Shown piece after piece: positions 9,132-31,639 of a DNA stretch of 49,786 nt (position 1 is the stretch's first letter; the number at the start of each line of letters is the position of its first letter). This DNA is from an uncultured Eubacteriales bacterium (GTDB taxonomy: Bacteria > Bacillota > Clostridia > Oscillospirales > Oscillospiraceae): contig ONOL01000021.1 of assembly GCA_900319465.1 (NCBI GenBank), positions 1 to 49,786 on the forward strand. The letters run 5' to 3'. The translations under genes and the position numbers were made by a program. The notes under the pieces were generated by a model. It had not been told where the DNA came from. It saw nothing but the letters and a program-made list of their open reading frames with translations, and made no database searches.

Positions 9132-9218
9132 AATGAATACTGAAAAACTGCGGTTTCGCTTCGCGACGATGGCAATTCGTTCGCCGCAGGCGAATACCGT
9201 CATTCTTCAATATTCATT
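9132..9218. repeat. Imperfect inverted repeat after the HAD gene
   Basis: AATGAATACTGAA (9132-9144) pairs with TTCAATATTCATT (9206-9218) with one mismatch; the interior is GC-rich. The right arm overlaps the last codons of the HAD gene, so the element may act as its terminator. The rest of 9086-9199 holds no gene. Confidence 0.4.
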
Positions 9219-9871
9219 TTCTCTCTCAGATATTCCCCGGCCTCGTACAGACTCGGAAAGATCCGCTCGGCCTTCGCGCGCATCTCCTCATCGGGTGCGA
9301 GCAGGTCGGGCACCATCAGCACGCGCATCCCGCCGGCGCAGGCGGCGCGCACACCGTTGTACGAGTCCTCGATCACAAAGGCGTCCGCGGGCTGTACGCG
9401 CAGCGCCGCGCAAGCTCTGAGAAAGATCTCCGGGTCCGGCTTGCTTTTCGTCACCATATCGCCGCTCACGACCGCGTCGAAGCAGTCGAGCAGCCCCGCC
9501 TCGGAGAGCCAGCAGCGCACGAGCTCTCCCTTCGTCGAGGAAGCGAGCGCCAGCGGCACGCGTTTCGCGCGCAGCGACAGCAGCAGCTCGCGCGCGCCGG
9601 GCTTGAGCGGCAGCCTGCCGCCCGCGTAGCGTTCCCGGTAGAGCGCGGTGCTGCGGCGGCGGAAGTCCCGCCAGGGAAAGTCCCCGCCGTAGGCCTCGCA
9701 GAGGATGCCGCCCGTCACCTCCTCGGTCACGCCGATGCAGCGGTGATAGACGCGCTCCATGTCCGCAAGGCCGTCCTCGGCCGCGAGCGCCAGCCAGCAG
9801 CCCATCAGCGCCCGTTCGGAGTCAAAAATCACGCCGTCCATGTCGAACAGCACGGCAGAATGTTTTTCCAT
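9200..9871 (-). CDS. HAD-superfamily phosphatase (beta-phosphoglucomutase-like)
   Basis: Predicted small-molecule phosphatase or phosphoglucomutase of the haloacid dehalogenase superfamily. The 223-aa protein has motif I FDMDGVIFDSE (nucleophile and acid Asp), a helical cap, motif II ALASSTKGE, the Lys in TKSKPDPEIF, and motif III/IV VIEDSYNGVRAA. All expected catalytic residues are present. The DxDGxxxDSE form and small cap resemble beta-phosphoglucomutase and GS1/YcjU-like enzymes; the substrate cannot be read from sequence. It lies downstream of the repeat-flanked GIY-YIG gene on the same strand. Confidence 0.88.
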   Translation of the reverse strand: MEKHSAVLFDMDGVIFDSERALMGCWLALAAEDGLADMERVYHRCIGVTEEVTGGILCEAYGGDFPWRDFRRRSTALYRERYAGGRLPLKPGARELLLSLRAKRVPLALASSTKGELVRCWLSEAGLLDCFDAVVSGDMVTKSKPDPEIFLRACAALRVQPADAFVIEDSYNGVRAACAGGMRVLMVPDLLAPDEEMRAKAERIFPSLYEAGEYLREKMNIEE

Positions 9872-9890
9872 TTGGTATCCTCTTCCTGAT

Positions 9891-10118
9891 GAGATCCTTC
9901 GTCGCTCCGCTCCTCAGGATGACAAGCGGGGGCGGGCAAAGCGACAGGCGGGGTTGGTCGAGGCGACCGGCCGTGCTGTCAAAGCGAGCGGCGGGGCTGG
10001 TCGAGGCGACCGGCGGGGTTGGTCGAGGCGACCGGCAGGGCGGGCAAGCTGACCGGCCGCCCGCCCGCTCCTGTGTCCGTTCGGCGCTTTCTGCTCCCCG
10101 CGCAGGCCTTCCCCTCTG
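9891..10118. repeat. Direct repeat array L (left of the GIY-YIG gene)
   Basis: About 228 bp. It begins with the dispersed palindrome half GAGATCCTTCGTCGCTCCGC, continues with GC-rich modules containing three copies of the dyad GGTCGaggCGACC (9956-9968, 9999-10011, 10021-10033), and ends with CGCTCCTGTGTCCGTTCGGC and GCAGGCCTTCC. The same blocks in the same order make up array R (10477-10701). No gene is seen in 9872-10165. Confidence 0.85.
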
Positions 10119-10142
10119 TCATCCTGAGCGCAGCGAAGGATC
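10117..10142. repeat. Dispersed palindrome half, inverted relative to array start
   Basis: TGTCATCCTGAGCGCAGCGA then AGGATC, the same family as 9891-9922 but in opposite orientation, so array L is bounded by an inverted pair. It ends 23 nt from the GIY-YIG stop codon. Confidence 0.75.
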
Positions 10143-10165
10143 CCGCCCCCGGCGCAAGCCGGGTC

Positions 10166-10450
10166 CTACCGCCATTCTTCCGATAAATCCCGCCACTCCG
10201 GGTTTACGCTCTCTACCAGGGCATTCTTTCTCGACCGCAGCCAGCCTTTCAGCTGTTTTTCCCGCCCGATGGCGGCACGTACGTCAGGAGTCGTCTCATA
10301 ATACACAAGCTTGTGGACGTGATACCGCTTTGTAAAGCCCTCAACCAATTCCTGCTTATGTTCAAAAACTCTGCGCTCCAAATTGTTTGTTACGCCGATA
10401 TACATGACACGGTCGCTCTTATTGGTCAGGATATAAACGTAATAATTCAT
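10166..10450 (-). CDS. Small GIY-YIG nuclease-domain protein between repeat arrays
   Basis: Single-domain GIY-YIG endonuclease of the small UvrC-N/YhbQ-like type, 94 aa from Met at 10450; upstream codons in the same frame only translate the palindrome. The GIY motif is VYI (residues 5-7) and YIG lies at 17-19 within VMYIGVTNNLERRVFEHK, providing the catalytic Tyr and Arg. The C-terminal half has REKQLKGWLRSRKNALVE, usual in this family. A purine-rich AGAAGAAG precedes the ATG. The gene has repeat array R 26 nt upstream and an inverted palindrome half 23 nt downstream. Free-standing members have no settled cellular role. The context suggests, by inference only, that it may be linked to maintenance or movement of the repeats. 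Confidence 0.88.
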   Translation of the reverse strand: MNYYVYILTNKSDRVMYIGVTNNLERRVFEHKQELVEGFTKRYHVHKLVYYETTPDVRAAIGREKQLKGWLRSRKNALVESVNPEWRDLSEEWR

Positions 10451-10476
10451 GCTTCTTCTGCGCTTTCCTCTGTTTT

Positions 10477-10701
10477 GAGATCCTTCGTCGCTCCGCTCCT
10501 CAGGATGACCGGCGGGGGCGGGCAATGCGACCGGCGGGGTTGGTCGAGGCGACCGGCCGTGCTGTCAAGCTGACCGGCCGTGCTGTCAAAGCGAGCGGCG
10601 GGGCTGGTCGAGGCGACCGGCGGGGCGGGCAGGGCGACCGGCAGCCCGCCCGCTCCTGTGTCCGTTCGGCGCTTTCTGCTCCTCCGCAGGCCTTCCTCTC
10701 T
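10477..10701. repeat. Direct repeat array R (right of the GIY-YIG gene)
   Basis: About 225 bp, starting with the same palindrome half as array L, containing two GGTCGaggCGACC dyads (10542-10554, 10606-10618), a repeated GACCGGCCGTGCTGTCAA module, and the same CGCTCCTGTGTCCGTTCGGC / GCAGGCCTTCC end. Same orientation as L; 586 bp start to start. Confidence 0.85.
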
Positions 10702-10705
10702 GCCC

Positions 10706-11278
10706 TTATTCCACCGGATGCAGCTCGACCATCCTCTCGTAGCTCACGGGGCGCAGGACCCGGGAATAGAAGTCGAGGATCATGCGCGGCGCAACGGGGG
10801 CGATCTCCGCCGTGCCCCGGATGGGCTTGCACATGAGGTCCACCATCGCGCCGCCGAGCCGGTAGTCGCTCGGCACATCCTGATAGCCGAAGCGGGCGAA
10901 GAATTTCCGCAGCTTGCGCAGATAGTCCCCGGACTCGTCGTCAAAGACCGTGAGCTCCGCGAGGATCCCCTGCCGGTCGGCGTAGCGCTTGTTCAGAAGC
11001 CGCATGGCCAGCACGCCCAGCCCCTGTTCCCGGAACCATGGCAGGATGGCGAAGTATTTGAGCAGCACATAACCGTACACGCTGCGGCACATCACCAGCG
11101 CATAGCCGAGGGTCATTTCGCTTTCCTCGTCGTAAAAGACCAGCAGCTCCTGCTCGCCGCGCATCATGGCCTTGTGGATCGCCAGCTTCGGCAGCAGCTC
11201 CCGTTTGTCAAAATCCATCTCCATGGCGGAATAGAGCCGCTCCAGATCGCGGTGTCCGCCTTTTCGTATCGTAAGCAT
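10706..11278 (-). CDS. GNAT-family N-acetyltransferase
   Basis: Predicted acetyl-CoA-dependent N-acyltransferase of unknown substrate, 190 aa. It shows an N-terminal beta-alpha region (MLTIRKGGHRDLERLYSAME), the strand EMTLGYALVM, and the acetyl-CoA-binding motif A region ILPWFREQGLGVLAMRLLNK, where a Q/R-x-x-G-x-G/A loop is recognisable. The C-terminal part is longer than a minimal GNAT domain. It starts 5 nt after the ABC transporter gene and is probably cotranscribed with it. Array R begins about 5 bp past its stop. Confidence 0.8.
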   Translation of the reverse strand: MLTIRKGGHRDLERLYSAMEMDFDKRELLPKLAIHKAMMRGEQELLVFYDEESEMTLGYALVMCRSVYGYVLLKYFAILPWFREQGLGVLAMRLLNKRYADRQGILAELTVFDDESGDYLRKLRKFFARFGYQDVPSDYRLGGAMVDLMCKPIRGTAEIAPVAPRMILDFYSRVLRPVSYERMVELHPVE

Positions 11279-19144: not shown

Positions 19145-19215
19145 TGTCATTCTGAGCGCAGCGTAGAAGCCCACAGGGTATCAAAGGGAGATCCTCCGCT
19201 TCGCGCGGGATGACA
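19145..19215. repeat. Dispersed GTCATTCTGAG palindrome upstream of gyrB
   Basis: TGTCATTCTGAGCGCAGCG at the left and GATCCTCCGCTTCGCGCGGG then ATGACA at the right form an imperfect inverted repeat of the same family as 27552-27623, 30048-30122 and 31595-31639. It lies between remB and gyrB. Confidence 0.65.
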
Positions 19216-27551: not shown

Positions 27552-27623
27552 TGTCATCCTGAGGAGCATAGCGACGAAGGATCTCGCGCGGATGCGAGAT
27601 CCTTCGCTTCGCCCGGAACGACA
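27552..27623. repeat. Dispersed GTCATCCTGAG palindrome near gpr
   Basis: TGTCATCCTGAGGAGCATAG with AAGGATCTCGCG on the left, and CGAGATCCTTCGCTTCGCCC with GGAACGACA on the right, form an imperfect inverted repeat of about 72 bp. It lies about 25 bp past the gpr stop on that gene's strand. Confidence 0.75.
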
Positions 27624-30047: not shown

Positions 30048-30122
30048 TGTCATTCTGAGCGCAGCGAAGAATCTCGGCGTTTACGCACGGATTTGAGATC
30101 CTTCGCGCCGCCCGGGATGACA
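30048..30122. repeat. Dispersed GTCATTCTGAG palindrome after the lipid kinase
   Basis: TGTCATTCTGAGCGCAGCGA at the left, and GAGATCCTTCGCGCCGCCCG with GGATGACA at the right, followed by TTTTTTTC, so it could end rightward transcription. Same family as 19145-19215, 27552-27623 and 31595-31639. Confidence 0.75.
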
Positions 30123-31594: not shown

Positions 31595-31639
31595 AAATGT
31601 CATTCTGAGCGAAGCGAAGGATCTCTCAGAATGACATTT
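31595..31639 (+). terminator. Palindromic repeat acting as asnS terminator
   Basis: AAATGTCATTCTGAG (31595-31609) pairs perfectly with CTCAGAATGACATTT (31625-31639) and is followed by a short T run. It is a compact member of the dispersed GTCATTCTGAG family, 11 nt after the asnS stop. Confidence 0.8.

Follow-up and report, generated by a model that had tools for sequence, protein, structure and literature searches.

Repetitive extragenic palindromic (REP) sequences were placed by a 2013 survey in a GTAG and a CGTC superfamily. In the parts of that survey covered here, the GTAG sequences are tied to the REP-associated tyrosine transposases (RAYTs) and the CGTC sequences are apparently without a dedicated transposase (PMC3733652, Di Nocera et al. 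2013). The same parts describe CGTC REPs as a CGTC, TGTC or CCTC tag with an AT-starting stem of 8-9 bp and a loop of 4-5, mostly arranged as inverted (HH) dimers; they name A. lipoferum, S. meliloti, Novosphingobium aromaticivorans and the Neisseriae as carriers, equate the Neisseria copies with dRS3, and count dRS3 and Rickettsia RPE-4/RPE-6 in the superfamily (PMC3733652). RAYT (TnpA-REP) is described, in the portion of the source consulted, as processing single-stranded REPs and needing their folded structure (PMC8266576). Here we describe a gene for a putative 94-aa GIY-YIG nuclease that stands between two palindrome-bearing repeat arrays in the window, by which we mean the whole analysed stretch of 49,786 nt from an uncultured Eubacteriales bacterium (contig ONOL01000021.1 of assembly GCA_900319465.1; contig C10 of a 2.0-Mb draft genome with a completeness of 88.5%). 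The nuclease is probably the missing enzyme that spreads or maintains this CGTC-type repeat family.

Within the open-licence literature, as far as searched, the association of gene and palindromes is unreported. No report of a GIY-YIG/REP link was found in open-licence PMC papers (among the titles and abstract starts listed), and "giy" does not occur in the main text of PMC3733652. In passages of one paper a RAYT and a GIY-YIG gene both appear, each in its own row of a table of genes (PMC9465073), and a term search of a 2025 REP survey found neither "nuclease" nor "transposase" as the start of a word (PMC12306157).

The nuclease gene and its palindromes

The nuclease gene and the palindromes are near-invariably linked in this family. 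A locus was scored as linked when a palindrome passing a strict rule (GTC head, stem of at least 5 bp starting AT, loop of 3-21) or a half-site lay within 400 nt of the gene. A profile scan of genome contigs returned at least 576 relatives, of which the best 80 were kept (L049-L128; L numbers denote loci and G numbers genomes). These span 11 named phyla and two unplaced records, with Cyanobacteriota added from plasmids, and all 80 carried a palindrome, on both flanks in 61. Because the half-site rule was designed on these 80 loci, the independent order, genus and plasmid sets are the fairer test (exact matching found no order-set or genus-set locus among the 80). A palindrome was present at 16 of 16 order loci (both flanks 11), at 8 of 9 genus loci (both flanks 8; the remaining copy is truncated and has a stop) and at 10 of 14 plasmid loci (both flanks 8; 14 of 35 records were fetched). 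Among the controls, it was present at 1 of 16 other GIY-YIG genes (14 drawn from the remoter order matches, the other two belonging to the window genome), at 7 of the 30 Y1_Tnp loci returned by the search, and in 156 of 988 far windows, with both flanks occupied in 0, 0 and 7 cases respectively; gene positions in the first two controls are approximate. The expectation of the initial annotation, made from the window's sequence, that homologues elsewhere would be flanked by the palindrome is upheld by these counts, and the repeats are not equally common beside random genes. Chance, GIY-YIG genes in general, Y1 transposases and repeat-rich neighbourhoods do not account for the linkage.

In a motif-free count the commonest near-gene 10-mers of the 80 loci were halves of the window's palindrome, and 39 of 80 loci had GTCATCCTGA no more than 500 nt from the gene, whereas 5 of 80 had it in a far flank six times as large. 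The density of strict-rule palindromes around these loci was 5.7 per kb at 0-200 nt, 1.1 at 200-400 nt and 0.09-0.25 beyond 700 nt. Sixteen of the 80, by eye mostly with long-loop or altered palindromes, failed the strict rule and all passed the half-site rule; L050, L076, L087, L089 and L121, which behave in this way, are unusable as negative controls. A relaxed rule ([CT][GC]TC head, 6-bp stem, loop of at most 45 nt) was dropped, being blind to 5-bp stems and separating poorly: it found 22 of 80 best loci, 12 of 14 plasmid, 7 of 16 order and 5 of 9 genus loci, and in the controls 5 of 16 other GIY-YIG genes, 6 of 25 Y1_Tnp genes and 229 of 1092 far windows.

The repeats were also not equally common in genomes without the nuclease. 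At least 3 palindrome copies were present in 7 of 16 gene-bearing genomes of the order against 9 of 279 others (Fisher p 2.8e-6), and at least 2 copies in 8 of 8 gene-bearing genomes of the genus against 10 of 33 others (p 4.6e-4), p values that are indicative only because the genomes are related and many are drafts.

For the window itself, the initial annotation had described two direct repeats with the same ordered blocks, one small GIY-YIG gene between them and, opening each repeat, a palindrome scattered elsewhere. The arrays, 9890-10118 and 10476-10702, align over their full length (score 179 against a maximum of 18.2 in 200 shuffles), the gene does lie between them (Table 1), and CCTGAGCGNAGCGAAGGATC, allowing up to 3 mismatches, has 6 matches in the window against 0.03 expected, one being the copy beside the gene. 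Both open with the same long palindrome; the closing inverted short palindrome is lacking in the right array. The dyad GGTCGAGGCGACCGGC occurs five times (0.01 expected), three in the left array and two in the right, and none outside the arrays. Gaps of 25 nt and 22 nt separate the gene from the right array and from the inverted short palindrome at 10117-10143. In the 2.0-Mb genome TGAGCGNAGCGAAGGATC, with up to 2 mismatches, has 15 matches and its reversed pattern 0; two further GIY-YIG matches are found there besides the 94-aa gene.

Table 1. Features of the window, with positions counted from its first nucleotide.
Feature	Position	Strand	Evidence
GIY-YIG nuclease gene, 94 aa, single domain	10166..10450	-	PF01541 E=1.3e-16; AF2 (AlphaFold) model pLDDT 96; translation
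Long-form palindrome GTCATCCTGAGGAGCGGAGCGACGAAGGATCTC, GTCAT head and ATCT tail, opens left array	9890..9924	-	
Left array spacer, three GGTCGAGGCGACCGGC dyads	9925..10116	no strand	
Short-form palindrome GTCATCCTGAGCGCAGCGAAGGATC at the close of the left array, in opposite orientation to the long form	10117..10143	+	
Second long-form palindrome copy (GTCATCCTGAGGAGCGGAGCGACGAAGGATCTC), opens right array, 25 nt from nuclease start codon	10476..10510	-	
Right array spacer, two GGTCGAGGCGACCGGC dyads, no closing short palindrome	10511..10702	no strand	
Dispersed long-form palindrome 27553-27586 (+) with degenerate inverted partner 27598-27617 (-)	27553..27617		
Dispersed dimer: palindrome 30049-30076 (+), degenerate inverted partner 30097-30116 (-)	30049..30116		
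Dispersed palindrome, inverted half-site at its end	31599..31635	no strand	
Degenerate dispersed pair: half-site 19146 (+), palindrome match 19190-19209 (-)	19146..19209		
Left neighbour, HAD hydrolase	9200..9871	-	PF13419 E 2.2e-28
Right neighbour, GNAT-like protein	10706..11278	-	PF13508 22.6 bits, under its cut-off of 27

The 94-aa protein scores 61.1 bits against PF01541 (cut-off 22.6) and matches the GIY-YIG and, barely, the T5orf172 profile and no others. Its single NCBIfam match is a homing-endonuclease model, below cut-off; six other small GIY-YIG proteins gave one match there, below cut-off. The order was sampled with 295 genomes taken from a larger group; of these, 16 including the window's carry full-length family matches, at 51-72% identity (window itself aside) and at least 91 bits. 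The remaining full-length matches reach at most 39% identity and 36.9 bits, and one partial match of 53 bits falls in the gap between the groups. By tblastn the family is present in 35 plasmid records, some chromosome-sized, and phage records gave no match; CP090106.1, NZ_CP119140.1 and NZ_AP026896.1 are chromosome-sized records filed as plasmids. An alignment of 80 proteins (the window's and those of 79 of the best 80 loci, L094 being left out for a stop) has 15 invariant columns, among them Y6, Y17, G19, R27, E64 and N83, and H31 is nearly invariant. Tyr, Tyr-x-Gly, Arg, Glu and Asn are catalytic-type residues of GIY-YIG nucleases; such active-site-type residues are conserved in the family, whose nuclease activity is putative. 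An AlphaFold model (predicted local distance difference test, pLDDT, 96) found UPF0213 1zg2 as best Foldseek match (E 3.1e-5, the sole match below 0.001), followed by Slx1-Slx4 (6seh, 6sei, 7cq3; E 0.007-0.03, probability 1.0, template modelling (TM) score 0.57-0.60); the I-TevI structure 1ln0 came at E 1.5. A profile search of solved structures returned only UPF0213 1zg2, 27% identical, and 1ywl.

The palindromes consist of a GTC head, a stem of 5-9 bp beginning AT, a short loop and an ATC tail. The head is constant and the stem varies between loci (ATCCT, ATTCT, ATTGC, ATTTC, ATCTC, ATGTC and others). GTCAT is preceded by T in 202 and by C in 14 of 222 near-gene palindromes; most proteobacterial examples have a CGTC tag, and the window copies begin TGTC or GGTC. 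In window-type palindromes an outer stem of 5 bp is followed inward by GA, mostly on both sides, and then by an inner stem; the interior measures 11-17 nt at five of six places in the window. In A. lipoferum, N. gonorrhoeae, Photobacterium and Aeromonas the loop is 4 and the stem 8, and in S. meliloti, Rhizobium CIAT894, Shinella and Neorhizobium they are 5 and 9. Among 145 distinct near-gene palindromes, 101 have GA just inside the first 5 stem bases on both sides and 63 have a centred x-CGN(N)AG-y (shuffled mean 5.3, maximum 11); the third base of four-base loops is a pyrimidine in 10 of 15, unlike RNA GNRA loops. DNA loops of the CGNAG/CGNNAG kind are unusually stable, and their frequency here suggests a folded form of the DNA, although nearest-neighbour folding lends this no support.

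Palindrome types, paralogues and mobility

The palindromes that flank the gene are of the type found dispersed through the genome concerned. We counted the YCT and TGC types in 29 genomes, with a reversed-pattern control of 0 throughout. The nine genomes with a YCT-flanked gene held 17, 181, 54, 36, 59, 129, 30, 66 and 113 YCT copies and, in the same order, 0, 1, 0, 0, 0, 0, 0, 0 and 51 TGC copies. Those with a TGC-flanked gene, again nine, held 51, 43, 12, 31, 67, 47, 23, 10 and 26 TGC copies and 2, 2, 13, 6, 1, 0, 45, 0 and 118 YCT copies. Four genomes with a YCC-flanked gene had YCT counts of 11, 3, 3 and 13 and TGC counts of 0; YCT/TGC counts were 0/3 and 40/95 in two genomes with a TTC-flanked gene, and 225/33, 0/0, 1/0, 0/0 and 1/0 in five that the strict rule left unclassified.

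At least 20 copies of both types were present in five genomes (G302, G309, G311, G313 and G318). A search for paralogues in 27 genomes gave 62 matches, and 33 of the 35 not already in hand were fetched (the other two are G302:C4, in a 474-aa frame, and the second piece of G305:C92). G302, G313 and G318 have separate YCT-flanked and TGC-flanked paralogues by the counted pattern; the second paralogue of G311 has five GTCATCCTGA half-sites and no full counted pattern. G358, of the window's genus, has one paralogue with YCT and another with TGC-type palindromes. A palindrome by either rule lay within about 500 nt of 23 of the 25 fetched paralogues scoring at least 73 bits and of 2 of the 8 below 66 bits, each of these two a single odd stem. 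A Dehalococcoidales record (G305, L109) has eleven nuclease-profile matches in about 1.6 Mb, with several palindrome types and one match broken by stops. The nuclease copies L290 (G318:C3) and L227 (G355:C4) have internal stops and no palindrome by either rule, and are possibly dead elements.

A comparison of the kind proposed in the initial annotation shows the unit present at its locus in some relatives and absent in others. The HAD and GNAT-like genes frame the insertion site and are adjacent to each other in congeners: in four of these they are 8-23 nt apart by alignment ends, against 834 in the window. In G358 they abut, and past the HAD gene there is a nuclease of 83% identity with palindromes, a close relative of the window element one gene away. 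In Azospirillum lipoferum 4B a dimer-gene-dimer unit, one arm imperfect, lies between sufB and sufC, and A. oryzae, A. ramasamyi and B510 have the sufB-sufC site without it (87, 91 and 129 nt) in flanks about 95% identical. Shinella strains about 81% identical differ in presence of the unit at another site. In both L199 (A. lipoferum) and L216 (Shinella sp. PSBB067, its placement judged from blastn pieces without annotation) the nuclease and CGTC palindromes lie between sufB and sufC, and the two proteins are only 50% identical; the coincidence may mean either that both units favour this gap or that the insertion is old and has been lost elsewhere.

The nearest palindromes point head-out on both sides at 25 of the 80 loci, and 20 of these 25 units measure 336-397 bp. 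Dispersed copies, chosen from paired listings, were 86-97-bp GTCAT...ATGAC dimers at 11 of 11 places fetched from G313, with spacers similar in either direction and unrelated flanks, and head-out dimers with 32-33 nt between the palindromes at 8 of 9 from G334. In the far flanks 12 of 23 adjacent palindrome pairs had the +- orientation. Dimers of G334, G326 and G358 often join a long form (about 30-36 nt) to a short form (about 25 nt) and, by eye, are heterodimers as in the window's left array. In the window the nuclease gene has another gene on either side, and in those plasmid records that are annotated it likewise falls between annotated genes, with no intron, intein or interrupted gene there. 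On Planktothrix agardhii plasmid p1 the unit (L204, 2678-3594) lies between an annotated MmeI-type restriction-modification gene and DISARM drmA, in what looks like a defence region.

The proposed element and its rivals

We consider it rather probable that the GIY-YIG gene and its flanking palindromes are the autonomous form of a RAYT-like, REP-type element built on an unrelated nuclease fold. The initial annotation had cast the nuclease as such a partner of the repeat family, a pairing that the linkage supports and from which recognition, copying and maintenance would be inferences. In such an element the palindromes would be the ends, and the scattered palindromes and inverted dimers would be non-autonomous derivatives. 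The nuclease would recognise its own palindrome type as a folded hairpin in single-stranded or cruciform DNA and would probably nick it close to the GTC head or at the base of the stem, much as a single-domain relative of Slx1, a structure-selective nuclease, would do. The dimers and, less often, the unit that carries the gene would then be spread by excision, by copying or by gene conversion during repair. In this scheme we infer the binding and the cleavage, the single-stranded state of the DNA, the copying step and mobilisation. A wider proposition, which we would as readily doubt as believe, is that bacteria have a new class of mobile element with a GIY-YIG nuclease of about 94 aa as its only enzyme. 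Its unit would measure roughly 350-400 bp between REP-like hairpins and its non-autonomous dimers about 90 bp; it would be present in at least 12 phyla and account for the CGTC REPs (Neisseria dRS3 and probably Rickettsia RPEs), with each paralogue dedicated to one palindrome type and a hairpin of single-stranded DNA, suggested by the frequent CGNAG/CGNNAG loops, as the substrate.

Several observations weigh against the proposed REP-type element. At 39 of the 80 loci the layout is another or a one-sided one, and the strict rule gives none at 16. Of the 20 fetched dispersed copies, 19 were compared (L243 was unparsed) and showed no target duplication as long as 4 nt, and the excess of 3-nt duplications is weak (3 of 19, reached in 45 of 2000 permutations). 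The boundaries of the empty sites in the genus are inexact because the species are only 54-73% identical in protein. Four of the 14 plasmid loci (L200, L209, L210 and L211) fail both rules and were counted as misses; by eye they have variant palindromes (CGTCGCCCC..., CGTCACCCC..., CTCATTCC...). Palindromes without a detected gene are not rare, since 9 of 279 order genomes (at least 3 copies) and 10 of 33 congeners (at least 2) carry them, and G328, G349 and G359 are drafts of the genus that are rich in repeats with no gene detected; enzyme loss or draft gaps would explain them, and independence of gene and repeats is also possible. In G032 and G051 the starts of contigs have several palindromes no more than a few hundred bases away, so that such arrays may break assemblies and leave nuclease genes hidden in drafts. 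Hymenobacter terrestris (G309, L119) has 45 YCT copies and its only nuclease match is TGC-flanked, its YCT palindromes being an orphan repeat set.

The protein tree is also poorly resolved, with 63 of 93 inner branches open. On it the TGC (3 changes, shuffled mean 13.3) and YCT (21, shuffled mean 32.2) types cluster and the YCC and TTC types do not, and a best cross-phylum-neighbour test was not significant (reached in 176 of 2000 shuffles). A within-phylum permutation was significant (0 of 2000), yet the effect amounts to 2 points of identity. We accept protein-stem specificity mainly because of the type matching and the paralogues. DNA folding of four window palindromes by ViennaRNA was no better than that of shuffles, and the 27-nt short form takes the expected fold at -2.7 kcal/mol, a value matched by 52 of 200 shuffles; since nearest-neighbour folding gives no support, the hairpin argument is one from sequence patterns.

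The main rival is homing into pre-existing repeats, in which a free-standing homing endonuclease would target the palindrome and so insert into repeats spread by another enzyme. The GIY-YIG fold is a typical one for homing endonucleases (I-TevI, for example), the 61 of 80 loci with palindromes on both gene flanks would suit this explanation, and a homing gene would give type matching too. We nevertheless find it unlikely. All four counted palindromes of G090 stand beside its gene and both counted YCT palindromes of G304 beside its one YCT-flanked paralogue, so that there the palindromes seem to come with the gene and not before it. The dispersed copies are dimers whose spacers resemble one another, and at none of the 30 loci are the Y1 transposase genes of the same genomes flanked on both sides, no search having been aimed at further genes recurring next to dispersed copies. 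Less probable still, in our judgement, is that the nuclease trims or resolves palindrome cruciforms, or that the palindromes regulate the gene, without any spreading. Its fold neighbours, UPF0213 and the branched-DNA nuclease Slx1, would fit such a role, as would the position of the nearest upstream palindrome: of the 57 loci having one within 400 nt, 39 have its end 8-50 nt from the start codon; against it, the unit itself is present or absent at syntenic sites and is patchy in the order (16 of 295 genomes), and several paralogues with different palindromes are unforeseen by a housekeeping role. That gene and repeats simply gather in permissive intergenic spots while a RAYT or IS200-type enzyme moves the repeats is very improbable: 23 of the 29 genomes examined do encode some Y1_Tnp protein, but the window genome (17 palindromes) and G300 (30 palindromes), both drafts, gave no Y1_Tnp match, the Y1_Tnp loci, at approximate gene positions, had a palindrome on one side in 7 cases and never on both, and low-scoring GIY-YIG genes of the same genomes lack one save for the two odd stems.

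If it is true that the nuclease mobilises the repeats, the proposed element would add a nuclease fold to those driving bacterial mobile elements, among which, to our knowledge, the GIY-YIG fold has not been counted, and it would offer naturally matched enzyme-hairpin pairs, sometimes several per genome. REPs are widespread in bacteria, and for the CGTC superfamily, which had no enzyme in the sources as far as covered, a dedicated GIY-YIG partner makes the question directly testable with a single small protein and a single oligonucleotide.

Comparison with known systems

REPINs are inverted palindrome dimers copied together as one unit of about 90 bp. The dispersed copies described here are dimers of this kind and would likewise be replicated whole; they differ from REPINs in having another palindrome and another partner gene (PMC3116915, as far as the source was covered). 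The near-gene palindromes of A. lipoferum, S. meliloti and N. gonorrhoeae resemble CGTC REPs, with CGTC (one TGTC), an AT-stem of 8-9 bp and a loop of 4-5, whereas window-type palindromes, with a 5-bp outer stem, GA and an inner stem, are not described in the parts of PMC3733652 covered. The Novosphingobium aromaticivorans locus fails both of our rules and by eye has a CGTC-headed variant.

The GIY-YIG fold predicted for the 94-aa nuclease would be held in common with Slx1 and the UPF0213 proteins, from which it differs by an identity of about 25-30% and by its single domain. Slx1 works with Slx4, and we know of no repeat association for Slx1 or UPF0213 proteins. Like I-TevI-type homing endonucleases, the protein has a GIY-YIG catalytic domain in a mobile setting; unlike them it is found with no intron or intein, has palindrome boundaries and, at 94 aa, is too short for a separate DNA-binding domain. 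With the RAYT REPtrons, as described in the parts of the sources covered, the unit shares a gene between repeats, repeats dispersed as dimers and matched types of enzyme and repeat (PMC8266576, PMC3733652), but RAYT is an HUH/Y1 enzyme (PF01797) on GTAG tags, and here a GIY-YIG nuclease accompanies a TGTC/CGTC tag. The unit has the architecture of a REP system, among which this class of enzyme would be a novelty.

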